From Desulfofustis sp. PB-SRB1 (GTDB lineage: Bacteria; Desulfobacterota; Desulfobulbia; Desulfobulbales; Desulfocapsaceae), in assembly GCA_016722945.1 (NCBI GenBank), contig JAEQMT010000038.1:124001-188000 (forward strand): a stretch of DNA of 64,000 bases, read 5' to 3'. The translations under genes were made by a program, and so were the position numbers. The notes beneath the pieces are model-generated. The model worked only from the letters and a program-made list of their open reading frames with translations, was not told where the DNA came from and searched no databases. Below are positions 12,756 to 54,470 of this stretch, in pieces (the stretch's first letter is position 1; every line of letters begins with the position of its first letter).

Positions 12756-14474
12756 GACGCCTGCAAAATATTCTGATATCACTGGTAAGATATTCAGACA
12801 AATGCTGTGCATTTAATGTGAGAATCAACACCGTCTTGAACTGGTACGACTGTGTCGATCTATCGCCAGGGTCTGTGGGTTGCATATCTCTGATCCATTG
12901 GCTGAAGACGTGTTGCTACCAGAGGGAGAAGCAATAGGTATACCGCCTGATCTGAAGATCAAGCAAACGTTTGCTCTGGGGTGCCCGTTGGTCATTGAGA
13001 CCCTATGGGAACGGCTCGGTTTGAAAAAGACGCTCAATAGTATTGAACAGGCAACCGGTAGTCAAGTTCCTTACGAACGAGCAATTCTGGCCATGGTCAC
13101 TAACCGATTATGTGACCCCGAATCCAAACTCGGGGTATGGGACCGCTGGCTGTCCACCGTCTACCTGCCTTCTTGTGCAAGCCTCAGGCTCAGGCATATG
13201 TATGAAGCGATGGACCTGCTTCACGCCAATATCGATACCATTGAACAAACCGTGTTTTTCAACACGGCCAACCTTTTCAACCTGGAGGTCGATCTGATCT
13301 TTTACGATACGACGACCGCTTCTTTCCAGGTCGATGCTGAAGACCATTCTGAAGCCGACCCCAACGCCACATTACGTAAATTTGGCCGTTGTAAAGAAGG
13401 CGGTTGGGCACCGCAGGTCGTCGTTGCTCTGGCGGTGACCCGCGATGGTATCCCGGTGCGTAGTTGGGTGTTGCCGGGTAATACCGCCGATGTCACAACG
13501 GTAGAAAAAGTTCGCGCCGATCTCAGAGGCTGGAACTTGGGTCGGGCAATGTTTGTCGCCGATGCGGGGATGAACTCCGAAGATAACCGCGTTGAACTGG
13601 CCAAAGCTTGTGGGAAATATCTTCTGGCCTGTCGTATGGCCAGTATCTCTGAAATCAATTTGAAGGTTCTCAGTAAACGTGGCCGCTACACCAAATTTAA
13701 GGATAACCTCTATGCCAAGGAGATCATCGTCGGCGATGGTGAGAGGCGGAGGCGTTACATCCTCTGTTATAACCCCAAACAAGCGCAAAGGCAGCGGAGC
13801 CACAGACAGCTAATAATCGAGCTGCTTGAAGCTGAGTTGGCCACGCACAAGGATCACTCAGCAACTGCCCAGTGGGCTATTGAATTGTTGGCATCACGCC
13901 GTTTCAAGAAATATCTGCGAACCACCAAAGGTGGCCTCATTCGTATTGACCGGGCTGCCGTTGGTAAGGCGGCAAAGTATGATGGAAAATGGGTAATTGA
14001 AACCAACGACGATACCATTAGTCTCGAGGATGCGGCGTGCGGTTACAAGAGTCTGATGGTGATCGAGCGTTGTTTCCGCTCGTTGAAACGTACCCAGATA
14101 AAGATGGTGCCGATGTACCACTGGGCCTCCCGAAGGATTGTGAGTCATGTCAAAATTTGCGTACTGGCCTTGCTTATCGAACGGATCGCTGAAATGACCT
14201 GCGGCATGTCGTGGCACCATATCCAGCGAAATTTGGAGACACTGCAGATCACAGAATTTTTTGATTTAAAGTATCGTGTGCTTATGCGCAACGAAGTGAC
14301 AACAGAGGCAAGAAACATATTAAAATCATTAAAGATAAAGGTACCAAAGCAGCTCATACACGCGGAAAAAACAGCTTGAATTTGTAGACACACGCCGAAT
14401 CTTGCTATGCATCGCATAACCACCAACAGCAATGGTTTGCGGTGATTCATGTACTTACAGACCGCAAACCCAAG

Positions 14475-24237: not shown

Positions 24238-25686
24238 ATGATGGACAACCGGACGCATCATGCCTTCGATCGGGCTTTGGCACTGGAAAAACAGGCGCGG
24301 TTCAACACGGCCAAAGCTCTGTATGAAGACCTTCTGCGACATTGCCCGGAGAAGAGTGTCCTGCAGAGAGTTCAAGATCGGCTGGAAGATATGGACGAGC
24401 TGATCGCCGAAAAAGCCATATACCGGCGAATTGATGAAAACGCAAAAAGAGTACTCACCGATATCGGCGTAAATATCGTCGACAATCAGAGTATTCTCGA
24501 TCTTCTGGTCCAGGTGAACGCCGTTGATTTCGACAACCAGACGGCGCTGTTCATTCCACTTAAACGGCACTACATTGACGCCTGTCTGGAGCAAACACCC
24601 CGTACCTTAGGCGCGGATCCCGGTATGAACACCTTTGGCACCGGCGCCACCTCACCGTTTCTCGCCCGAACCGGTGATGACGAACTGCGCCCTGCTTCTC
24701 GCCGTGAGTACCAAGAGATTGTCCAGGTGGTCAGTGACAACAGCGATATCGTAGGAATTTTCAGTCTGCCGGTTGCCTGCGACAAGAGCGCCACGTTGTT
24801 TGACATCGCTCAGATGATGGAAGATCGGTATCACGGGCTGAAAATGATACCAACCAATACCATGCATGATGACGAGGTTTCGTTTCTCAGTGGAAAAGAA
24901 GAGTGGCTCGACGGCACCAGCCTGCTTACCTCGCTGACCCCCATGAACACTATGGTGGGTGCCTTTATGCGCAGCGCCCGCGCCGGCAATAACCTCTTAC
25001 TGGTCGACCAGAGCCTTGTGGGGCTGTCAGGCCCCGGCAGCCCGGAGGCCATCCTTACCCTAGTCCATGCCCACATCATCTTCATGATCGTCGTCGCCCA
25101 GACTGTCACTCCCGGCATATCCTGCGTGCACTGCGGAATTCCAAGCATCGTCGGAGGTGACGGCACGCTGGCCTACTCCTCCGCTCACCAGAGCATGATA
25201 AACGCCGCCATGGCCAGGCTTAACACCTGGATTACCGGCCTGCCCACCGCCCAGACCGGCGGCAGCACCAGCATGACCGAAGTAGCAGAGCAGGCGCTGG
25301 TTGATTCGGAACTCAGCCGTAACCTTTTGCGCAAATATGGAGTGCATATCGTGCGCCATGCCCTGGGCGCGCTGGACAGCCTCAATTTCTTCAGCCTGGA
25401 AAAGTTTGTCCAGGACTGCGAACGGGAACGGCGCGATCAAACGATCTTTGCATCGGTGATAGAACGCAAGGGCATCATACCGCTCTATTTTCCAACCGAT
25501 GATCATGCTCTTGAGGGAATCCGGGAAATAGCCGAAAAAGGCAACCCCAAAAGTGCCGATCACACCCTAAGGAACGTGGATTCGTTTTCCCTTTGGGAAG
25601 AGCGCATTAAAGACGCCGCAACCAGAAAGCTATACTACCCGCAGCTCAACGATATGGTTATTGATGCAATCGGGAAGAGGAAATAG
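24238..25686 (+). CDS. MttB-family (trimethylamine methyltransferase-like) corrinoid methyltransferase
   Basis: 482 residues. After an N-terminal 55-residue helical extension (RALALEKQARFNTAKALYEDLLRHCPEK, TPR-like) comes the MTTB TIM barrel: NAKRVLTDIGVNIVDNQSILDLL, TFGTGATSPFLAR, PITALTPLN-like SLTPMNTMVGAFMRSARAG and CVHCGIPSIVGG. No in-frame UAG is present, so this is the non-pyrrolysine subgroup, members of which demethylate quaternary amines such as glycine betaine or proline betaine and pass the methyl group to a corrinoid protein. No corrinoid-protein gene is adjacent. It starts after GAAGAG, 13 bases past the hairpin repeat. Confidence 0.87.
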   Translation: MMDNRTHHAFDRALALEKQARFNTAKALYEDLLRHCPEKSVLQRVQDRLEDMDELIAEKAIYRRIDENAKRVLTDIGVNIVDNQSILDLLVQVNAVDFDNQTALFIPLKRHYIDACLEQTPRTLGADPGMNTFGTGATSPFLARTGDDELRPASRREYQEIVQVVSDNSDIVGIFSLPVACDKSATLFDIAQMMEDRYHGLKMIPTNTMHDDEVSFLSGKEEWLDGTSLLTSLTPMNTMVGAFMRSARAGNNLLLVDQSLVGLSGPGSPEAILTLVHAHIIFMIVVAQTVTPGISCVHCGIPSIVGGDGTLAYSSAHQSMINAAMARLNTWITGLPTAQTGGSTSMTEVAEQALVDSELSRNLLRKYGVHIVRHALGALDSLNFFSLEKFVQDCERERRDQTIFASVIERKGIIPLYFPTDDHALEGIREIAEKGNPKSADHTLRNVDSFSLWEERIKDAATRKLYYPQLNDMVIDAIGKRK

Positions 25687-27425: not shown

Positions 27426-28094
27426 TTATGTTTTGACCGCGCCGACACCATCGTCAACACGAGCTCTGTAAGAGATGGTAGCTATCTGTCCATAAGTGTC
27501 AAGCAAACTGGATATATCCGTTTCAAGCTCTGCCGCCCCGGTAAATACCAGTCCATGCATGCCCACCGCCCGGGCGGCGGCAACGTGGCCGGCCGTGTCA
27601 TCGATAAAAATCGCTTCTGCCGCGCGGACGCCAAGTCTTTCAAGGGTTAGTCGGTAGATGCGTGGGTCCGGCTTGGCACGCCCCACTTCAGCGGAACAGA
27701 TAATTACATCAAAAAGTGAATCGATTTCCCACTCCACAAGCCAGCCCCTCAGTCCCGGCGGGTGATTGGAAAGCAGCGCCAGCATCAGTCGGCCATGATA
27801 TACGTGAAGCAACTCACGAACCGCCTCGTTGATGCGTTCGGCCTCGTAGTAGCGTTTCTGAAAATTCTCGATCTCAGCCGCTGTACGCAGGTTGAGAGCA
27901 GGGCCGACCGCCTGCCAGTATTGATCCATACTGAGCTCTCCCACCAATGCGCGGTGCCAGTGGGGAGAGTCGAACATAATGGCGTTGATGGTGTCCGGCG
28001 CCAGCCCCAGATCGCGCTCATAGGCGCGAAACAGCTCCGGCGGCTTCCAGGCGGAGATTACCCGGCCAAAGTCGAAGATCAGCGCCTTGATCAC
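27426..28094 (-). CDS. HAD-superfamily hydrolase
   Basis: About 222 residues from a GTG at 28094, preceded by CAGGAG; an upstream GTG at 28106 is less well placed. Motif I is LIFDFGRVIS (D-x-G), motif II ALLSNHPP, motif III KPDPRIY, motif IV FIDDTAGHV, so the active site is complete apart from the second motif I Asp being replaced by Gly, as in the DFGGV subgroup of Cof/HAD-IA relatives. It may be a small-molecule phosphatase. It is 12 bases after the inositol-1-phosphate synthase gene, the last in the 11-gene operon, and could remove the phosphate from an inositol-phosphate conjugate, the role of the still unidentified phosphatase step in mycothiol synthesis. That role is inference. Confidence 0.8.
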   Translation of the reverse strand: MIKALIFDFGRVISAWKPPELFRAYERDLGLAPDTINAIMFDSPHWHRALVGELSMDQYWQAVGPALNLRTAAEIENFQKRYYEAERINEAVRELLHVYHGRLMLALLSNHPPGLRGWLVEWEIDSLFDVIICSAEVGRAKPDPRIYRLTLERLGVRAAEAIFIDDTAGHVAAARAVGMHGLVFTGAAELETDISSLLDTYGQIATISYRARVDDGVGAVKT

Positions 28095-28118
28095 AACTCC
28101 TGGCACAGGGCAGGCCGC

Positions 28119-29225
28119 TTAATTGCGCATGGTGCCGTCGATGAAACGATCCACCATACGATGCGCTTCGTCGTCCGGCACCTGGCGAGGCGGATGTTTG
28201 CAGAAATAAGCTGATGGTCCTTCCAGGACTCCTGATAAACCACGATCCAGGGCCAGTTGGGCGCAGCGGATGGCATCTATCACCACGCCGGCGGAGTTGG
28301 GTGAATCCTCCACCGAAAGGCGCAGTTCCAGGTTCATGGCAACGTCACCAAAGAGTCTTCCCTCCATGCGGATAAAGCCGATCTTGTTGTCTCCCTGCCA
28401 GGGTACGTAGTCACTGGGGCCGATGTGAATGTCGGCTGCATTGAGACGTTTTTTCGCCACCGCCTGCACCGCCTCGGTTTTGGACTCTTTTTTAGAAGAG
28501 AGACGGCCTCTGTCCAGCATGTTGAGAAAATCGGTGTTGCCGCCGGTGTTGAGCTGATAGGTACGGTCCAGTTTGACGCCGCGCCGTCTGAATAGATCGG
28601 TAAGGGCGCGATGGACAATGGTGGCGCCCAGCTGCGACTTGACATCATCACCGATCAGCGGCAGCCCCCGCTCGCTGAACCTGGCCGCCCACTGTTCATC
28701 ACTGGCGATGAACACGGGAATACAGTTTACCACCGCAAGGCCCGCCGCCAGCGCGCATTCCATGTAGAACTCGGTGGCCCGCTGGGCGCCTACCGGCAGA
28801 AAATTGACCATAACGCGGGCGCCGCTTCGCCGCAGCTCATCGATAATTGCCTCTTGTTCCCGATCATCGCTCAGAGCCGGATCAAATCGTCGCTCCACAT
28901 CATAGTCGCTCATGTGTGCGGCAACCCCATCCAGAGTAGCTCCCATACTCACCGCAACTCCGGATGCAGGCAGGTACCTCTGAAACACCGTTGTGCAATT
29001 GGGCGGCTGGAAAATCGCCTCGCTTAGATCTCTGCCAACCTTGCGCCGATCCACATCAAAGGCCGCCGCCACCTCGATATCGCCGGGCCGGTAGTCGCCA
29101 ATCCGCCAATGCATCAGGCCGATGGCCTCATTCTCAGACTGATTGCGATAGTAGTGAATTCCCTGGATCAAGGCGCTGGCGCAATTGCCGACCCCGACAA
29201 CGGCGATTTTAACGGTATTCATCAT
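28119..29225 (-). CDS. ino1: Myo-inositol-1-phosphate synthase
   Basis: 368 residues, the length of the actinobacterial/archaeal type. NAD-binding motif VGVGNCASALIQGI is at residues 8-21; SMGATLDGVAAHMSDYDVERRFDP, NFLPVGAQRATEFY, GDDVKSQLGATIVHRAL, LNTGGNTDFLNMLDRGRLSSKKESK and GPSDYVPWQGDNKIGFIRMEG are conserved family blocks including the catalytic Lys residues. It converts glucose-6-phosphate to 1L-myo-inositol-1-phosphate. Immediate neighbours are a PIG-L deacetylase and a GT4 glycosyltransferase, the same partnership as in mycothiol synthesis, and it lies in a closely coupled operon. Confidence 0.94.
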   Translation of the reverse strand: MMNTVKIAVVGVGNCASALIQGIHYYRNQSENEAIGLMHWRIGDYRPGDIEVAAAFDVDRRKVGRDLSEAIFQPPNCTTVFQRYLPASGVAVSMGATLDGVAAHMSDYDVERRFDPALSDDREQEAIIDELRRSGARVMVNFLPVGAQRATEFYMECALAAGLAVVNCIPVFIASDEQWAARFSERGLPLIGDDVKSQLGATIVHRALTDLFRRRGVKLDRTYQLNTGGNTDFLNMLDRGRLSSKKESKTEAVQAVAKKRLNAADIHIGPSDYVPWQGDNKIGFIRMEGRLFGDVAMNLELRLSVEDSPNSAGVVIDAIRCAQLALDRGLSGVLEGPSAYFCKHPPRQVPDDEAHRMVDRFIDGTMRN

Positions 29226-29237
29226 GTGCTCCCTGCT

Positions 29238-29936
29238 TCATCCCGGCATCACCACGGTATGGAAGGCCTCGGCCAGCTCGAACGAACTGCCCTGGGCATG
29301 TTTCCGGCATCGCTGGCGCAGCCACTCTTCCAGATTGCCGCCGCCAATCCCTTCTATCTGGCTTACATGACAGCGCAGGGCGGCAAGCTTGAGATCGAAG
29401 GTTTCGGCGATGTCAACCTGATGATTGACATCCTCAGTGCCAAAGAAATAGAGCTCCTTTACCTTGTGCGGCTCGAGCCCCTCGGCCAGCATATCCGGAT
29501 ATGCCAGGTGATCGCGGGCATAGGGGAAACTTGCATCCACCACCACCTGGCCAAGGATACGATGGTCACGATGCCAGACATAGCGACGATAGGGGTCAGT
29601 GCTCACCACGATATCGGGACGATAGGTGCGAATCTGGCGCACGATCAACTCACGAAATTCAGCTGTCTCTTCAAGCTGCTGATCCGGCAATCCGAGAAAA
29701 TCGACGAATGACACCCCCAAGGTGCGGGCGGCGGCCCGTTGTTCCTCCTGGCGGATGCGGGCAAGTTCGACCGGATCGACGGAGCGGTCGCCACTGCCCT
29801 TGTCGCCGTTGGTGCAGACCACGTACCCTACCGATCTACCCTCCTCTATCCAGCCGCCGATGGTTCCCGCCGCGCCAAATTCGGCGTCATCAGGGTGGGC
29901 GATTATTACCAATACATCGATGCTATGGGTGGTCAT
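29238..29936 (-). CDS. PIG-L family N-acetylglucosaminyl deacetylase (MshB/BshB-like)
   Basis: 232 residues. The family signature AHPDDAEFGAAGTI holds the zinc ligands His-Asp-Asp, and the third ligand His is in RRYVWHRDHRILGQ (HxxH). CTNGDKGSGD and FLGLPDQQL are typical. These enzymes remove the acetyl group from GlcNAc attached to inositol (MshB), malate (BshB) or phosphatidylinositol. Given the adjacent inositol-phosphate synthase and GT4 gene, GlcNAc-inositol is the natural candidate substrate. The gene starts 18 bases after the glycosyltransferase stop. Confidence 0.9.
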   Translation of the reverse strand: MTTHSIDVLVIIAHPDDAEFGAAGTIGGWIEEGRSVGYVVCTNGDKGSGDRSVDPVELARIRQEEQRAAARTLGVSFVDFLGLPDQQLEETAEFRELIVRQIRTYRPDIVVSTDPYRRYVWHRDHRILGQVVVDASFPYARDHLAYPDMLAEGLEPHKVKELYFFGTEDVNHQVDIAETFDLKLAALRCHVSQIEGIGGGNLEEWLRQRCRKHAQGSSFELAEAFHTVVMPG

Positions 29937-29954: not shown

Positions 29955-31172
29955 TTATGTTTCTTGGTTTCCTTCACGTTGTTGTAAGGCCTGAAGATAA
30001 GCATCCAGGAGCCGCTCAGCCACCACCGGCCAGGCAAAGCCCGTCACCGTGGCACGAATCGTGGCGGGCTCAGCCCGTTGTGCGATCGCAAGACACTGGT
30101 CAACGGCCTCGGCTAGACCATCATGGTCACCAGGTTCGGCAAGCCAGCCATTGCGGCCGGGCGCAAGTATCTCGGCACTGATGCCAACCCGGGTGGCCGC
30201 CACCGGCACTCCACAGGCCAAAGCCTCGAGCACGGTCAGGCCAAAGCTCTCGTAGTGCGAGGAGATCACCAGACAATCAGCCCGCCCGTAGTGATCGGCC
30301 ATGGATTCGTGAGGTACCGGCCCGAGATACCGAAGCGACTCATGCACACCGAATTCTTCCGCCATGTTTTGCAGCCGCCAGTGCGATGCGCTGTCGATGC
30401 CGTCGCCACCGATCAGGGTCAGACGGGCCGGCCGCCGCTTCAAGAGGGTGCGCAGCGCCGCCAGCAGCACCTCCACGCCCTTCATACCATCGAACCTGCC
30501 GACGAACAGCAGCTCCGCCGTCTCTTTCTTTTTTCTATCGGTCGCCGGTATAAAGTGCGCGATATCAACCCCACACGGCACCCGCACGATATTTGTGGCG
30601 CCAAGCTGCCGGTATCGAGCCTCCTCGGCAGCGGTCGGGGCCAGCAGCAGATCACCGCCGGTCATCAGCCGGTGCTCGGCAGCAAGCCGCACCTCTGATT
30701 CGCGGTGATTCTTTACAACCGCTGTTTTAGCCGCCGCCAGAGTATGAAAACTCACCACATGGGGGCAGCGCCAGCGCCTTGCGAGCAGGTTTCCCAGCAG
30801 AGCTGAGATCCAGTAATTGCTGTGAATTACCTGGTACTCACGGCCGTTTTGCTGCCGATAGCTGTCAATTTCATGGGCACAGCCATTACCATAATGCCAC
30901 AACTGCTCCTTTTCCGGTTTATCGTGCACCCCGAGAGGCTGGATCAGCACTAGCAGGACGTTTTTACTCACCACCTGTACGGTGGGTTCATCCGGACTCG
31001 GTCGCCAGGTGAAGATATCCACCTGGTGGCCGCTCTCACCCAATTGCTTTGCCATCTCTCGCACGTACACACTCATTCCGCCGGTGTCTTGTGTACCCAG
31101 CCGGCCGAACGGGCTTGAGTGGACGCTGAGCATCGCCACGTTGCAGGTAGCGCCACACTGTTCTACCGCCAT
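29955..31172 (-). CDS. GT4-family glycosyltransferase, MshA-like
   Basis: 405 residues with the two Rossmann domains of GT-B enzymes. N-terminal domain: VAMLSVHSSPFGRLGTQDTGGMSVYVREMAKQLGESGHQVDIFTW, strikingly close to MshA's pattern HTSPLxQPGTGDAGGMNVYV; nucleotide-sugar domain: LLFVGRFDGMKGVEVLLAAL, and the E-x7-E catalytic motif in YESFGLTVLEALACGVPVAATRVG. The family uses UDP-GlcNAc and inositol-1-phosphate in actinobacteria. It overlaps the acyltransferase stop by ten bases and is followed by the deacetylase and inositol-phosphate synthase. Confidence 0.88.
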   Translation of the reverse strand: MAVEQCGATCNVAMLSVHSSPFGRLGTQDTGGMSVYVREMAKQLGESGHQVDIFTWRPSPDEPTVQVVSKNVLLVLIQPLGVHDKPEKEQLWHYGNGCAHEIDSYRQQNGREYQVIHSNYWISALLGNLLARRWRCPHVVSFHTLAAAKTAVVKNHRESEVRLAAEHRLMTGGDLLLAPTAAEEARYRQLGATNIVRVPCGVDIAHFIPATDRKKKETAELLFVGRFDGMKGVEVLLAALRTLLKRRPARLTLIGGDGIDSASHWRLQNMAEEFGVHESLRYLGPVPHESMADHYGRADCLVISSHYESFGLTVLEALACGVPVAATRVGISAEILAPGRNGWLAEPGDHDGLAEAVDQCLAIAQRAEPATIRATVTGFAWPVVAERLLDAYLQALQQREGNQET

Positions 31173-32173
31173 TTAATCACGACCTTTGCCAATGCCACCG
31201 TACCGGCGCCAAGCCGAAATTTGTATGGCTCAGCACCATTGAGAAAATCAAATACCGTGCACCCGGATTCAATGGCGTGGTCAATCATCATTACCTTACT
31301 AATGGTGCCGATGGAGAGCACTTTGAAATCGACATTAAAGCCATTGTTGTAGAGATAGAGGGTAGTGCCGTCCTTCATGCAGAAGGTGGTGGCAGCAGGC
31401 ACGCCGTCAATCTCCACCACCTGCAGAACCAGCATCCCCGCCGTCGCCAGGTTATGGGCAAGGCGCCTGAAAAAAATTTCCCGGGCGGGAGTCATAAAGC
31501 CCTGCTTATCGGTACGGCTCGCCCTGAACTGCATGAAAAACAGATCAAGCGCCGTGTCCACCTCAGCGCCGCCGTCAATCAGCCGCCGGCTCACCACGCC
31601 GGCCTCGTGAAGCCGCCTGAATTTGCGGCGAACCTCGTGGCGCTGCTTGGTGCTGAGCATCCCCAGATACTCATCCCAACTGCGCGGCAGGGCAAGGGGC
31701 GCGGCCACCCCGGCGGACTCCACCGCCACTGTAGCGCCAGCTGCTTTGGCAGTTGGCACCAGGTGGTTCAACAGCACTGAGCCGGGCCGCACCGCATGTG
31801 CACTAAACTCTTGCAGTTCCCGCTCACCCAGAAAATTCAGGACTGCCTCGGCTGCATCTTTTTCATAACCGGTCGCCACGGCAATATCCACATGATCACA
31901 CAGATCGTCGGAACCGATCATTGCGGCGGTATCTCCCCGCACCATCAGCGGCACCACGGCAACCGGTTCAGCGCCCTTATCGACCCGCACAACCAACCAG
32001 GAGTACGGCTCCCCGAGACTATCCCACCAGGCCCGCAGCCACGGCTCACTTACAAACGGTCCGCTCCCTTGCCACAGGTGCTGATTCGTGTGGTACAGCC
32101 GGGCAAGTTCAGCGGCGTCAAGCGCGGTAAGATTCAGATGCCTGTCCCGATTTTTTCGCGTTGACCCCATCAA
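31163..32173 (-). CDS. GNAT/FemAB-fold acyltransferase (Acetyltransf_6, CelD-like)
   Basis: 336 residues. It shows features of the CelD/FemAB-like GNAT family: LWQGSGPFVSEPWLRAWWDSLGEPYSWLVV.., the basic pattern WDEYLGMLSTKQRHEVRRKFRRLHEAG and LYLYNNGFNVDFKVLSIGTISKVMMIDHAIESGCTVFDFLNGAEPYK near the C-terminus. Members transfer acyl groups from acyl-CoA or aminoacyl groups from tRNA. In the operon it is the only candidate for an MshD-like N-acylation step, or alternatively for an aminoacyl transfer that would replace MshC. It overlaps both neighbours' reading frames, indicating translational coupling. Confidence 0.75.
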   Translation of the reverse strand: MMGSTRKNRDRHLNLTALDAAELARLYHTNQHLWQGSGPFVSEPWLRAWWDSLGEPYSWLVVRVDKGAEPVAVVPLMVRGDTAAMIGSDDLCDHVDIAVATGYEKDAAEAVLNFLGERELQEFSAHAVRPGSVLLNHLVPTAKAAGATVAVESAGVAAPLALPRSWDEYLGMLSTKQRHEVRRKFRRLHEAGVVSRRLIDGGAEVDTALDLFFMQFRASRTDKQGFMTPAREIFFRRLAHNLATAGMLVLQVVEIDGVPAATTFCMKDGTTLYLYNNGFNVDFKVLSIGTISKVMMIDHAIESGCTVFDFLNGAEPYKFRLGAGTVALAKVVIKWR

Positions 32174-33204
32174 CCACCCGTACGTGGTACCAGCACCGAC
32201 GTCATGGTCCGGGCGGCCTTATCCATCGCATCCAGTACCAGCAGATTGGCAATGGATTCGGACACGGGCTGCTCGTTGATCGCCCCATCACAAACCACAT
32301 CACGAAAATGCTCGACAAGCAGCTGATATTCATCCGCCCCCGGTATACGAAGCCGTTCCCCCTCTTCCTGATCACCACGGCGGATCGTCAGGTATGCGTC
32401 CTGCTCCCAGGGAATAAAGGTGTTGTGCGGCAGTTCAATGGCGCCCTTGCCGCCGACCACGGTAAAACTCTGTTGCAGTCCGGCGCCAAAACTCACCTCT
32501 ATGGAGGCCAGTGCATCGCTGCCGAATCGCAGGTTGCCCACCAGGTGAATATCAGCCCCACCGACATTATGATACAAGGCGGCCGCCTGGACGATATCGG
32601 GTTCCGCACCCAGCAGCCAGCGGGCCGCGCTGACACAATAGCACCCCACATCGAGCAGCGCGCCGCCGCCCTGTTCCCGAATCAGCCGGTAATTATCGGT
32701 GCTATCCAGCAGATGCTCATCCATGCTGAAACAAAAGGCGGCCCGCACCAGTTTTGCCGCACCGATTGCCCCCTCATCAACCAGCGCCTTGACGCGCCGG
32801 GAACGGGGGTGAAAGCGGTACATCATCGCCTCCATGAGCACCACCTCCGCTGCCGCCGCCGCATCGGCCATGGTACGCGCCTGGGAGGCATTGCCGGCCA
32901 GCGGTTTTTCACACAATACATGCTTGCCCGCCGCCACAGCGGCCAGGGTGACGGGAAGATGCAGATGGTTGGGTAGCGGCAGATACACTGCATCTACCTC
33001 GGGATCGACCAGAAGATCGCGGTAATCCTCATAAAGACGCGCGATACCATACTGGGTGACCAGTTCGGCGGCCTCGTGGGGGCGGCTGGTGGCCAGCGCA
33101 TGAATGATGCAGCCGGGCGTCTTGGCGATGGCCGGCAACATGCATTTGCGGCCAATCAGCGCATTGCCGATGATCCCCCAGCGTAGCTCAGATGCCATCG
33201 TCAT
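32170..33204 (-). CDS. Gfo/Idh/MocA-family oxidoreductase
   Basis: 344 residues. The N-terminal Rossmann fold has RWGIIGNALIGRKCMLPAIAKTPG (GxGxxG-like with Asn-Ala replacing Gly), and EKPLAGNASQARTM corresponds to the conserved EKP motif that carries the catalytic Lys. The C-terminal alpha/beta domain begins near residue 130. These enzymes oxidise or reduce hydroxyl groups of sugars or inositols with NAD(P). The linkage to inositol-phosphate synthase suggests action on inositol or an inositol glycoside. It overlaps the acyltransferase start by four bases. Confidence 0.87.
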   Translation of the reverse strand: MTMASELRWGIIGNALIGRKCMLPAIAKTPGCIIHALATSRPHEAAELVTQYGIARLYEDYRDLLVDPEVDAVYLPLPNHLHLPVTLAAVAAGKHVLCEKPLAGNASQARTMADAAAAAEVVLMEAMMYRFHPRSRRVKALVDEGAIGAAKLVRAAFCFSMDEHLLDSTDNYRLIREQGGGALLDVGCYCVSAARWLLGAEPDIVQAAALYHNVGGADIHLVGNLRFGSDALASIEVSFGAGLQQSFTVVGGKGAIELPHNTFIPWEQDAYLTIRRGDQEEGERLRIPGADEYQLLVEHFRDVVCDGAINEQPVSESIANLLVLDAMDKAARTMTSVLVPRTGG

Positions 33205-33237: not shown

Positions 33238-34527
33238 TCATGACAGCTCAGCTGGTTCGGTAAACCGCCAGGTGGTCTCCCCCACCGTATCTTCCACCAC
33301 GATACCCGCATCACTGAGGATGTCGCGCAGACTATCGGCCATTGCATAATCCCCATCGTTACGGCACCGCTGTCTGATTGCCAGCATCTCTTCTACCAGG
33401 GGTTTCACCAGCTCAGCACGAACAGCCTGAGTCAAGACCGGGCGCATCGCCAATGAAACCAGCAGCTCGCGGAACAGATCCCGGGCCTGGGCGATGCTCT
33501 GCGCATCCACGCCCTGCTCTTGTCCCTGCCAGAGTAAACGGTCAATCTCCAGCAGGGCGGCTGCCGCCGGCTCCATCTCGGCGGCTGCAGAGCGGTCATT
33601 GAAGTCACGTTCTAAGCGGTGAAAAACGGTCCAGAAATCCTCTCTCTCCTGAGGTTCTATAACTTCGGTATTTGCCGGTGCAACGGGCAGCGCTGTCGCC
33701 CTTTCACCCCGCAACAATCCCAGAGGATACGATGTTCCCGGGTTGAACACTGCCGTTTCACCGCCGGTCACCAGACTCACCGTGCCGACGCCGCGCACGC
33801 TGAAACAATCCCGATCCAGATCGATAAGGCAGGCGGTGTGTTCATCCAGGCCGAGAACGGCAAGCGGCTGGGCAAGGCCAGCAACCATCCCAGCAAAACG
33901 AATAGTCCCCATATAGCAACGGCGGGTGTCGTGGGTGCCGCCCTCGGCATTGTTCCAGTGTGGGACAACGATGAGATCAAGGCCGAACTCGCCAAGAATG
34001 TCAAGCCCGTCTATCCAGTGAGGTTTTTGGCCGACCTTGTATATCTCATACACCGGCAGGGTGTATCGTCCCATGGTAATGGCGGCGGCACTGGCGGCGG
34101 CAAGGCAACCGCCGCGCTTCACCAGGTCGGTGATAATGGCGGGAATGGCGGTTGGCCGGAGCTGTTCCACCGTATAGGTAGGGCTGCCCGGCCCCAGCAA
34201 GAGATAATCCGCCTGGCGCAACTGGGCGTAGGCGGCATGGCGGTTGGTTTCGGAGATGGATTCATTGGATTTGAAGGAGGCGACGTGTAGCGGGTAGCCA
34301 ACCCGGTTACGGAAATAGTCAACGGCAGTGGCGCCAATCTGATCGGCATTGAGTTGAAACCCCGCCGGCGTATCGAGAAAAGTGGCCATCGGCCGCTCTC
34401 CAAGACCACGCAAAAGTCCCTTATGGACCTCCACCATGGAAGCGGTGAGTTCGCCGGAGCCCATCAGGGCGATAGTGCCGGGCCGGTGCTGGTTATCAGT
34501 GGCAGCTACATCCATCAACGCTTTCAT
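33238..34527 (-). CDS. Peptidase-S51-like domain fused to a cysteinyl-tRNA-synthetase-type C-terminal domain
   Basis: 429 residues. The N-terminal 270 resemble the type 1 glutamine amidotransferase-like/peptidase S51 fold: TIALMGSGELTASMVEVHKGLL, LLLGPGSPTYTVEQLR and the nucleophile-elbow equivalent GCLAAASAAAITMG (Ser kept but GxSAG replaced). The C-terminal 130 residues look like the DALR/C-terminal end of cysteinyl-tRNA synthetase: RLERDFNDRSAAAEMEPAAAALLEIDRLL and, at the end, MLAIRQRCRNDGDYAMADSLRD then AGIVVEDTVGETTWRF. No CysS catalytic HIGH/KMSKS motif is present. CysS-type enzymes include MshC, the ligase that adds cysteine in mycothiol synthesis, so this fusion is notable in an operon with MshA-, MshB- and Ino1-like genes. 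Confidence 0.82.
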   Translation of the reverse strand: MKALMDVAATDNQHRPGTIALMGSGELTASMVEVHKGLLRGLGERPMATFLDTPAGFQLNADQIGATAVDYFRNRVGYPLHVASFKSNESISETNRHAAYAQLRQADYLLLGPGSPTYTVEQLRPTAIPAIITDLVKRGGCLAAASAAAITMGRYTLPVYEIYKVGQKPHWIDGLDILGEFGLDLIVVPHWNNAEGGTHDTRRCYMGTIRFAGMVAGLAQPLAVLGLDEHTACLIDLDRDCFSVRGVGTVSLVTGGETAVFNPGTSYPLGLLRGERATALPVAPANTEVIEPQEREDFWTVFHRLERDFNDRSAAAEMEPAAAALLEIDRLLWQGQEQGVDAQSIAQARDLFRELLVSLAMRPVLTQAVRAELVKPLVEEMLAIRQRCRNDGDYAMADSLRDILSDAGIVVEDTVGETTWRFTEPAELS

Positions 34528-35246
34528 CCGTGGCCGAGGTTAACCCGGAGCCAGGCCGCCGGGATAGTCTCACCGGAGGATGCCGTAATCAGGCCCGATT
34601 CATCCTCAAGCAGTACGCCGCCACCGCCGTATACCCGCCAGTCGCCGGTATCGCCGTCGTTGATCAGTGCCGTCTCTTCGTCAACCCCAAGTAAGGTAGT
34701 GTTCGGCAGGGCCTTGCGCAGCGGCGCCCGCCATCTATTGCCGAAGGTGTTGAGGTGAGGGATGAAGCAGGTTCCGGCAACCAGTGCCAGGCCGGGCCTT
34801 ACCGAATCGGTTCGGGGGTCGAAGAGATGCTCGCACAGCACCATCGCCCCGGCGCTGCTGCCGCCGATTACCGCCCCGCCCGACCAGGCCGCCAGTATCG
34901 CCCGCCATACCAGAGATTTTTGTAATACATCCAATAAATAACCGGGAAACCCTCCCAGCAGATAGATAAGCGTACCCTCGGCAACGCCTGTGGCAAGGCG
35001 CTCATCGTTGGCCGAGGATTGATCGATCACCGGTGAACACCGCACCTCTTTTGCACCCACCGACTTGAACCAGGCCACTGCCCGGGCGCCGGCCCGTTCA
35101 TGGTTATTGTCCGGGGCCGCCGCCGCAACAATAATAACAACCCGCGCCTCAGCGCCACCGGCCAATAAGACGGCCCGCTCATCAGCCGCCGCCATGGCGC
35201 CGCCGAACTCGGCGCCGCCGGCCAGAAGAACACAACCTCTACTCAT
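34524..35246 (-). CDS. Peptidase-S51-like (cyanophycinase/DppE-like) protein
   Basis: 240 residues with the S51 fold: VLLAGGAEFGGAMAAADERAVLLAGG at the N-terminus, LIYLLGGFPGYLLDVL, and the nucleophile elbow IGGSSAGAMVLCEHLFDPRT with an intact GxSAGA serine. The His could be in FIPHLNTFGNRWRAPLR. Family members hydrolyse alpha-aspartyl dipeptides or cyanophycin; some are of unknown role. It overlaps the fused S51/CysS-tail gene start by four bases and the aldo/keto reductase-like gene by four, so the two S51-like proteins may form a heteromeric enzyme. Confidence 0.82.
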   Translation of the reverse strand: MSRGCVLLAGGAEFGGAMAAADERAVLLAGGAEARVVIIVAAAAPDNNHERAGARAVAWFKSVGAKEVRCSPVIDQSSANDERLATGVAEGTLIYLLGGFPGYLLDVLQKSLVWRAILAAWSGGAVIGGSSAGAMVLCEHLFDPRTDSVRPGLALVAGTCFIPHLNTFGNRWRAPLRKALPNTTLLGVDEETALINDGDTGDWRVYGGGGVLLEDESGLITASSGETIPAAWLRVNLGHG

Positions 35247-52504: not shown

Positions 52505-54470
52505 CTTGGGTTTGCGGTCAGTAGGCACAAAATCGGTCGAATTCACTCCATTAGATAAGTCAAAATCGCTAAATTTCAACAACATATATCGAGCCAAATG
52601 TCAGGTGTGAGCTGAAATATGTAGGCACACGAATTGTATTTATTTCCTTGCATTAGCTGTCTATACATGCTATTTACGTAAGCATGTACCTGAGAACAAC
52701 AAAACGCACCAACAAAGATGGCTCGGTCGTCGAGTACTTTCAGATTGCCCACAACGAGCGCCATCCAAAGACTCGCAAACCGGTCGCCAAAATCATCCAT
52801 AACTTTGGTAGAGCCGACCAACTTGACCGTCTTGAACTGGTACGACTGTGTCGATCTATCGCCAGGGTCTGTGGGTTGCATATCTCTGATCCATTGGCTG
52901 AAGACGTGTTGCTACCAGAGGGAGAAGCAATAGGTATACCGCCTGATCTGAAGATCAAGCAAACGTTTGCTCTGGGGTGCCCGTTGGTCATTGAGACCCT
53001 ATGGGAACGGCTCGGTTTGAAAAAGACGCTCAATAGTATTGAACAGGCAACCGGTAGTCAAGTTCCTTACGAACGAGCAATTCTGGCCATGGTCGCTAAC
53101 CGATTATGTGACCCCGAATCCAAACTCGGGGTATGGGACCGCTGGCTGTCCACCGTCTACCTGCCTTCTTGTGCAAGCCTCAGGCTCAGGCATATGTATG
53201 AAGCGATGGACCTGCTTCACGCCAATATCGATACCATTGAACAAACCGTGTTTTTCAACACGGCCAACCTTTTCAACCTGGAGGTCGATCTGATCTTTTA
53301 CGATACGACGACCGCTTCTTTCCAGGTCGATGCTGAAGACCATTCTGAAGCCGACCCCAACGCCACATTACGTAAATTTGGCCGTTGTAAAGAAGGCGGT
53401 TGGGCACCGCAGGTCGTCGTTGCTCTGGCGGTGACCCGCGATGGTATCCCGGTGCGTAGTTGGGTGTTGCCGGGTAATACCGCCGATGTCACAACGGTAG
53501 AAAAAGTTCGCGCCGATCTCAGAGGCTGGAACTTGGGTCGGGCAATGTTTGTCGCCGATGCGGGGATGAACTCCGAAGATAACCGCGTTGAACTGGCCAA
53601 AGCTTGTGGGAAATATCTTCTGGCCTGTCGTATGGCCAGTATCTCTGAAATCAATTTGAAGGTTCTCAGTAAACGTGGCCGCTACACCAAATTTAAGGAT
53701 AACCTCTATGCCAAGGAGATCATCGTCGGCGATGGTGAGAGGCGGAGGCGTTACATCCTCTGTTATAACCCCAAACAAGCGCAAAGGCAGCGGAGCCACA
53801 GACAGCTAATAATCGAGCTGCTTGAAGCTGAGTTGGCCACGCACAAGGATCACTCAGCAACTGCCCAGTGGGCTATTGAATTGTTGGCATCACGCCGTTT
53901 CAAGAAATATCTGCGAACCACCAAAGGTGGCCTCATTCGTATTGACCGGGCTGCCGTTGGTAAGGCGGCAAAGTATGATGGAAAATGGGTAATTGAAACC
54001 AACGACGATACCATTAGTCTCGAGGATGCGGCGTGCGGTTACAAGAGTCTGATGGTGATCGAGCGTTGTTTCCGCTCGTTGAAACGTACCCAGATAAAGA
54101 TGGTGCCGATGTACCACTGGGCCTCCCGAAGGATTGTGAGTCATGTCAAAATTTGCGTACTGGCCTTGCTTATCGAACGGATCGCTGAAATGACCTGCGG
54201 CATGTCGTGGCACCATATCCAGCGAAATTTGGAGACACTGCAGATCACAGAATTTTTTGATTTAAAGTATCGTGTGCTTATGCGCAACGAAGTGACAACA
54301 GAGGCAAGAAACATATTAAAATCATTAAAGATAAAGGTACCAAAGCAGCTCATACACGCGGAAAAAACAGCTTGAATTTGTAGACACACGCCGAATCTTG
54401 CTATGCATCGCATAACCACCAACAGCAATGGTTTGCGGTGATTCATGTACTTACAGACCGCAAACCCAAG
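52505..54470 (+). mobile_element. IS1634-type element copy 2 (intact)
   Basis: 1,966 bp with inverted repeats CTTGGGTTTGCGGTC at both ends and the 5-bp direct repeat TAGGA at 52500-52504 and 54471-54475. Inserted into an R2 palindromic repeat. Practically identical to copy 1 at 9284-14474 outside its inner transposon, so both are recent. Confidence 0.93.
52684..54375 (+). CDS. IS1634-family transposase (intact copy)
   Basis: 563 residues. N-terminal MYLRTTKRTNKDGSVVEYFQIAHNERH is a typical start for the group; catalytic regions LIFYDTTTASFQVD, MFVADAGMNSEDNR, and the C-terminal KSLMVIERCFRSLKRTQIKM with the Glu. Complete and probably active; it can supply transposase to the broken copy 1. 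Confidence 0.95.
   Translation: MYLRTTKRTNKDGSVVEYFQIAHNERHPKTRKPVAKIIHNFGRADQLDRLELVRLCRSIARVCGLHISDPLAEDVLLPEGEAIGIPPDLKIKQTFALGCPLVIETLWERLGLKKTLNSIEQATGSQVPYERAILAMVANRLCDPESKLGVWDRWLSTVYLPSCASLRLRHMYEAMDLLHANIDTIEQTVFFNTANLFNLEVDLIFYDTTTASFQVDAEDHSEADPNATLRKFGRCKEGGWAPQVVVALAVTRDGIPVRSWVLPGNTADVTTVEKVRADLRGWNLGRAMFVADAGMNSEDNRVELAKACGKYLLACRMASISEINLKVLSKRGRYTKFKDNLYAKEIIVGDGERRRRYILCYNPKQAQRQRSHRQLIIELLEAELATHKDHSATAQWAIELLASRRFKKYLRTTKGGLIRIDRAAVGKAAKYDGKWVIETNDDTISLEDAACGYKSLMVIERCFRSLKRTQIKMVPMYHWASRRIVSHVKICVLALLIERIAEMTCGMSWHHIQRNLETLQITEFFDLKYRVLMRNEVTTEARNILKSLKIKVPKQLIHAEKTA

Follow-up and report, generated by a model that had tools for sequence, protein, structure and literature searches.

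Which function is served by a protein joining a peptidase-like domain to the C-terminal end of a cysteinyl-tRNA synthetase, and why should it be encoded among genes reminiscent of mycothiol synthesis? The question is raised by a reading frame encoding 429 residues, located at positions 33238..34527 on the (-) strand of the window, the stretch of 64,000 nucleotides of Desulfofustis sp. PB-SRB1 DNA analysed in this work. The product, hereafter S51C, consists of an S51-like fold (approximately residues 17-275), followed by a CysS-type C-terminal region including a helical bundle and a CysS_C domain. Pfam and NCBIfam profile searches matched no aminoacyl-tRNA synthetase catalytic domain in S51C, the class I HIGH/KMSKS domain found in MshC included, and cysS models align with the tail only (residues 295-421 and 321-421). 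In the AlphaFold2 model (mean pLDDT 86.3, pTM 0.71) the S51-like domain is followed by a bundle of four helices (298-390), and then by a small domain made of one helix and two strands (394-422). Full-length homologues, 43-55% identical, share this architecture, and the fusion is therefore not a chance product. The preliminary description of the locus had claimed that an S51-like domain is fused to the end of CysS in the absence of a HIGH/KMSKS catalytic part. Both statements are borne out, as the CysS_C domain scores above its cut-off, the S51 fold is recovered by modelling, and the arrangement is kept in homologues.

The fusion is old and widespread. By using two conserved peptides, 314 stretches were retrieved from a collection of 84,980 genomes, one per species, and 261 of them encode a relative of S51C. 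Only the best 80 of the 261 were retained as study loci, hence remote relatives, and phyla other than that of the window, are poorly represented. The titles of the 80 are mostly of the Desulfobacterota type (Desulfofustis, Desulfosarcina, Desulfobacterales, Deltaproteobacteria), the remaining ones including some Nitrospirae and one labelled Bacillota. Within a sample of 395 genomes of the phylum to which the window belongs, the fusion was found in 41 (E<=1e-60). Conservation was evaluated on 76 full-length sequences, the window protein and 75 homologues from the 80 loci; L074, L102 and L105 were missed by the start motif, and the incomplete proteins of L093 and L101 were excluded from the counts. 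Alignment A2 comprises 52 sequences, the window protein included. A distant form, in which the S51 part is joined to CysS_C with a spacing that leaves no room for the bundle, occurs in genomes G083 and G256, and its CysS_C domain was confirmed by Pfam in G083. A short variant having the S51-like part directly on CysS_C, apparently devoid of both bundle and operon neighbours, was noticed at L118 and L119; these fusions, and those at L121 and L122, reside away from the operon.

The S51-like domain (residues 17-275; 33703..34479, (-) strand) does not reach the cut-off of Pfam Peptidase S51 (PF03575; 17.2 vs 23.9 bits). The fold is recognized in the model, which matches 6nqc with Z 25.8 and rmsd 2.7 over 236 residues, cyanophycinase 3en0 with Z 23.2, and PepE 1fy2 with Z 21.0. 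A Ser-His-Glu/Asp triad and a GxSAG motif have been defined for S51 enzymes (PMC11078827). Residues S146, H190 and E229, assigned by position, are the Ser-His-Glu candidates of S51C, and are invariant in 76/76 sequences, while the motif is replaced by ASAAA. In the model S146 lies at a strand-turn-helix elbow (strand 141-145, helix 147-150). The invariance of the candidates, and the location of S146 at the strand-helix turn, suggest that the predicted serine site is probably active in spite of the altered motif. S51C resembles PepE and cyanophycinase in fold and triad candidates, but differs from Peptidase S51 in its sub-threshold score, in the ASAAA sequence, and in having distinctive motifs, strongly conserved, near residues 52-60, 112-118, 156-171 and 189-207.

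The CysS-type region (residues 298-423; 33259..33636, (-) strand) combines the four-helix bundle with CysS_C, a small alpha/beta domain spanning residues 378-421 which matches the Pfam profile PF23493 at 33.7 bits, over a cut-off of 23 (E 3.9e-8). A profile made from 5 relatives matched the solved CysRS chains 8qhp (E 2.8e-7), 3tqo (5.8e-7) and 1li5/1u0b (1.3e-6), and the match, extending over profile positions 298/300-414, covers both bundle and CysS_C. Structural similarity is modest. The tail matches 1u0b, the complex of E. coli CysRS and tRNA-Cys, with a Foldseek E-value of 1.8e-3; by VIA-align, the comparison with CysRS gives Z 8.2, with an rmsd of 16.3 over 117 residues, within the interval 299-423. 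The assignment is thus carried by the sequence evidence. Indeed, the alpha chain of GlyRS (5f5w) matches the bundle as well (VIA-align Z 10.6, residues 297-365), and the bundle alone is accordingly not diagnostic; it is the sequence profile, together with the CysS_C part, that identifies the tail.

In E. coli CysRS, residues Arg423, Arg427, Trp432 and Asp436 are reported to contact the anticodon G34 (1u0b; PMC12684709). They correspond, in an ungapped alignment, to R385, R389, Y394 and D398 of S51C. R385 and D398 are found in 76/76 sequences, R389 in 75/76, and position 394, equivalent to Trp432, hosts an aromatic residue in all 76 (W 60, F 10, Y 6). The four positions are less variable than the others of the tail (Mann-Whitney p 0.003, a value obtained with only four positions), and R401, D413 and W420 are likewise invariant in the 76 sequences. 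S51C resembles the anticodon-binding C-terminal region of CysRS in sequence, in predicted fold and in the four G34-contact positions; this region is joined to a class I catalytic domain in CysRS, to an S51-like hydrolase domain in S51C. Judging from conservation, the tail has kept the appearance of a module reading tRNA-Cys, and we propose that it may bind tRNA(Cys). The similarity noted at first inspection withstood both profile search and structure prediction, and exceeds a few coincident residues. The accompanying idea, that S51 chemistry may be coupled to a Cys/tRNA-binding module, is made plausible by the predicted S51 site and by the retention of the anticodon-contact positions.

S51C belongs to a tight operon, all on the (-) strand, which extends from a second S51 gene to a HAD gene with intergenic distances between -10 and 33 bases. 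The upstream gene (34524..35246), overlapping the start of S51C by 4 bases, encodes a second S51-like protein with a classical GSSAGA motif, H164 and E190. S51C is followed by a GFO/IDH/MocA oxidoreductase (32170..33204, identified by Pfam), a tandem-GNAT Acetyltransf_6 protein with a FemX/Sbb17-like predicted fold, called GNAT6 (31163..32173), an MshA-like GT4 glycosyltransferase (29955..31172; TIGR03449, 1.5e-71), a PIG-L deacetylase of MshB/BshB type (29238..29936, from profile matches), an inositol-1-phosphate synthase, Ino1 (28119..29225; TIGR03450 mycothiol_INO1, 4e-124), and a HAD-type hydrolase, a candidate phosphatase (27426..28106). Glycosyltransferase, PIG-L and Ino1 remain below the curated mycothiol cut-offs (241.5/462.5 bits for MshA, 38.3/224.35 for MshB, 414.4/638 for Ino1), and the product may hence differ from mycothiol. 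The best PDB matches of the glycosyltransferase are MshA chains (5.9e-106 and 2.2e-105), but Tll1590 is almost equally close (2.2e-102), so that the acceptor is not proven, and the gene was discarded as a mycothiol marker. Beyond the operon end, the window encodes a protein of the MTTB (trimethylamine methyltransferase) family (24238-25686, (+) strand). A segment of 1619 bases occurs in two 99.9% identical copies (12843-14461 and 52839-54457), which hold an ORF at the same place, the first one matching a DDE transposase (PF01609). The segment is probably a recently duplicated IS, and the operon lies between its copies.

Analysis of the best 80 of the 261 loci by BLAST detected GNAT6 in 66, the glycosyltransferase in 61, PIG-L in 47 and the GFO gene in 41. 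Across the 36 loci flanked by 6 kb or more in either direction, HMM searches identified GNAT6 in 33, the glycosyltransferase in 32 and PIG-L in 29, the three being found all together in 27/36, and the second S51 gene in 17. GFO (24/36), Ino1, a metallo-hydrolase and a histidine phosphatase (8/36 each), HAD (6/36) and a glutaredoxin-thioredoxin-reductase-type gene (5/36) were counted with single-sequence models, which possibly include looser relatives. Gene order is rearranged in L044, L057 and L098, yet linkage persists. The metallo-hydrolase of L128 is GloB-like. A glutaredoxin-thioredoxin-reductase fusion is encoded near the operon at L098:7839-9110 and L100:7814-9181 (domains were checked for L100), and is a candidate reductase for the putative thiol of the pathway. 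Neighbours of the metallo-hydrolase and thioredoxin-reductase types would fit a thiol. At L031:7218-8918 and other loci, a GFO/IDH/MocA protein of about 550 residues, absent from the operon of the window, is encoded between the fusion and the 340-residue GFO protein; its N-terminal part of about 200 residues had no Pfam match in the L031 protein.

In the 395 genomes of the phylum, GNAT6 was found in 37/41 genomes hosting the fusion and in 25/354 genomes lacking it (Fisher p 7e-31, a statistic which ignores phylogeny). The four fusion genomes devoid of GNAT6 are G082, G163, G252 and G405; the fusion is likewise not accompanied by GNAT6 in G450. GNAT6 is absent at E<=1e-40 from G082, and at E<=1e-30 from G450; the glycosyltransferase is also absent, at E<=1e-60, from G163, G252, G405 and G450. 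Since G163, G252 and G405 are MAGs 82-90% complete, and G450 is a MAG titled as a chromosome, with at least one N stretch, located in the fusion locus L037, absences in these four genomes are weak evidence. In turn, 25 of the 62 genomes with GNAT6 do not host the fusion, 22 of them having matches to the CysS-type tail region only, and 3 having none, and GNAT6, glycosyltransferase and PIG-L genes are kept together without the fusion at several loci, as L128, L129 and L131. The fusion is thus not indispensable to GNAT6 in these genomes.

The neighbour GNAT6 is also of relevance. Its predicted model has a pLDDT of 94.3, and its sequence matches PF04339 FemAB_like (37.6 vs 27 bits). The top 23 rows obtained by VIA-align include Sbb17/Sba18, FemX/FemA and MprF/aminoacyl-PG-synthase entries (Z 18.1-21.9), along with 2hqy, a protein of unknown function. 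FemX entries score Z 20.5-21.8, as expected for a tandem GNAT fold like that of FemX, in comparison with 14.6 and 13.4 for MshD, and no more than 15.1 for other GNAT proteins. The titles of the Sbb17 and Sba18 entries describe aminoacyl-tRNA-dependent peptide synthases, two of the three entries being complexes with streptothrisamine. According to a study of the FemX-like protein Orf11, this amino-sugar intermediate is converted by using Gly-tRNA (PMC12945691). GNAT6 shares with FemX and the Sbb17-Orf11 transferases the tandem-GNAT fold (Z 20.5-21.9). Near its C-terminus an aromatic-Lys pair is conserved (Y317 in 64/64 sequences, K318 in 63/64), K318 being a putative counterpart of the catalytic FemX Lys305, as judged only by the ends of the aligned ranges. 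At the sequence level, GNAT6 retrieved no PDB chain at E<=1, those of FemX included. Acetyltransf_6 proteins may in general adopt the FemX-like fold. In Foldseek, the tandem GNAT acetyl-CoA binder 2wpw, involved in clavulanic-acid biosynthesis, ranks ninth, between MprF entries, with an E-value similar to that of FemX. An MshD-like acetyltransferase role for GNAT6 is less favoured, because by VIA-align the fold is better matched by aminoacyl-tRNA transferases. GNAT6 is at least as good a candidate as the fusion for the actual transfer of cysteine.

In mycothiol synthesis, cysteine is ligated to GlcN-Ins with ATP by MshC, a paralogue of CysRS (PMC9736012), described as aminoacylating an amino sugar, apparently without tRNA (PMC2922099). 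The operon of the window shares MshA-like, PIG-L (MshB-like) and Ino1 genes with this pathway, but no protein over the MshC cut-off was identified in the sets of genomes searched (0/6; 0/41, the fusion genomes; 0/8; 0/395, the phylum), nor was BshC (E<=1e-10) in the 41 fusion genomes. The parallel with MshC drawn in the preliminary description holds in that the operon is mycothiol-like. The analogy itself is inverted, because MshC resembles the catalytic domain of CysRS, S51C the C-terminal part only. The sub-threshold MshC matches that were inspected are cross-hits to CysS-like proteins, either full-length CysS (L107, L110, L112, L175), a cysteine synthase-CysS fusion (L116), cut or shortened CysS (L172, L169), or pieces (L173/L174). 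The MshC-like proteins of G082 and G190 are devoid of the anticodon domain, and the cysS model gives them a slightly better score than the MshC one; the two strongest MshC-like matches of the 395 genomes are both in fusion genomes. One of these, the G082 protein without anticodon domain (L145:6108-9455), adjoins an MshA-like glycosyltransferase (TIGR03449, 357 bits).

Other unusual CysS-like proteins were encountered. Three fusion genomes (G405, G328, G443) encode a short CysS paralogue of 410-425 residues, without the anticodon domain and below the cysS cut-off, the copies being located at L168:327-1604, L170:601-1863 and L171:450-1682. Relatives (E<=1e-75) occur in 12/395 genomes of the phylum, 3 with the fusion (Fisher p 0.12), and no operon gene was found within 12-15 kb around the three copies; the short paralogue was thus rejected as the missing partner of the fusion. 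At L116:675-2999 (G011) a cysteine synthase is fused to CysS (PALP, tRNA-synt_1e, DALR_2 and CysS_C, by Pfam for L116 only), and similar frames of about 780-840 residues occur in G000, G025, G031 and G045. In such proteins, one half could produce the cysteine that the other loads onto tRNA.

The explanation we tentatively prefer, quite possible but short of probable, is that S51C recognizes tRNA-Cys for a step attaching cysteine from Cys-tRNA, which would replace MshC in a mycothiol-like thiol pathway. The predicted fold, the domain fusion, the conserved anticodon-contact positions and triad candidates, and the operon have all been computed for S51C; the binding of tRNA, the use of Cys-tRNA, the division of labour, the nature of the product as a thiol, the role of the serine and the handling of cysteine by the fusion are what we infer. 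According to this scenario, Ino1 would supply inositol phosphate, the MshA-like enzyme would add GlcNAc, and PIG-L would free the amine, to which the FemX-like GNAT6 would transfer cysteine from Cys-tRNA(Cys). The S51-CysS_C protein would dock tRNA(Cys) through the anticodon, and either pass the charged tRNA on, or hydrolyse wrong or surplus aminoacyl esters at its Ser-His-Glu site. In the simplest account, the transfer would most likely be performed by GNAT6, and the S51 site would act as a relay or in proofreading. Since 25 genomes carry GNAT6 without the fusion, the latter is less likely to be the sole transferase than a partner.

The same genomes weigh against the alternative in which cysteine is transferred by the fusion itself, Ser146 forming an acyl-enzyme from Cys-tRNA(Cys) and delivering cysteine to the glucosamine amine, with GNAT6 confined to an MshD-like acylation. 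Invariant Ser-His-Glu candidates, the elbow position predicted for Ser146, the presence on S51C of a putative tRNA-reading domain, and the lack of MshC over cut-off and of BshC in the 41 fusion genomes are all in line with such a role. Cyclodipeptide synthases form an acyl-enzyme from other aminoacyl-tRNAs, and offer an analogy for the route through Ser146. Yet, by VIA-align the GNAT6 model resembles aminoacyl-tRNA transferases more than MshD, G082 also has an MshC-like gene, and we regard this alternative as unlikely. We are similarly doubtful about the broad proposal that in Desulfobacterota, Nitrospirae and related bacteria the cysteine of a mycothiol-like thiol is provided by Cys-tRNA(Cys), and not by free cysteine activated with ATP, with the S51-CysRS-domain fusion acting on the charged tRNA, and the S51 fold being a new aminoacyl-tRNA-dependent acyltransferase.

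Alternatively, the fusion could be a trans-acting deacylase or editor of tRNA(Cys), or tune the pool of Cys-tRNA or cysteine, and be linked to the operon since thiol synthesis drains cysteine. The association of a hydrolase fold and a tRNA-Cys domain on one protein, and the existence of fusion copies standing alone, are compatible with this notion. Its linkage to sugar-thiol-like genes, however, is strong and outlasts rearrangement, and CysRS is described as choosing its amino acid without editing, which makes the need for a tRNA(Cys) editor less obvious; the hypothesis appears quite improbable. That the fusion is an ordinary S51-type peptidase or amidase acting on a cysteine conjugate, in a Mca-like manner, with the CysS tail as a protein-protein or dimer module with no tRNA function, is very improbable, because few positions of the tail are as well conserved as those of anticodon contact, even if the S51 fold and the triad candidates, the second S51 protein often adjoining the fusion, and the match of the bundle helices to other helical proteins, as the GlyRS alpha chain, would suit it.

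Cys-tRNA-dependent attachment would be unusual, as we know of no low-molecular-weight thiol drawing its cysteine from tRNA. No instance was found among the matches listed in searches of the open-licence literature, and no paper describing an S51-CysS_C fusion among those listed in open-licence full texts, a collection that leaves most subscription journals outside. A minireview went no further than the speculation that tRNA-Cys could serve as a cysteine reserve in the synthesis of bacillithiol (PMC5372718). Mycothiol genes were assigned to Actinobacteria only in a 2018 survey, and neither Deltaproteobacteria nor Desulfo- is a word used in its main text (PMC6282198). The present work names a candidate thiol pathway for sulfate-reducing and related bacteria. 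With 261 stretches encoding the fusion, and a FemX-like transferase residing nearby in 33/36 well-covered loci, the idea of tRNA-derived cysteine is directly testable. The occurrence of the fusion in many bacteria of the sulfur cycle, and in a mycothiol-like operon, hints that these organisms may form a protective thiol by using tRNA-derived cysteine.
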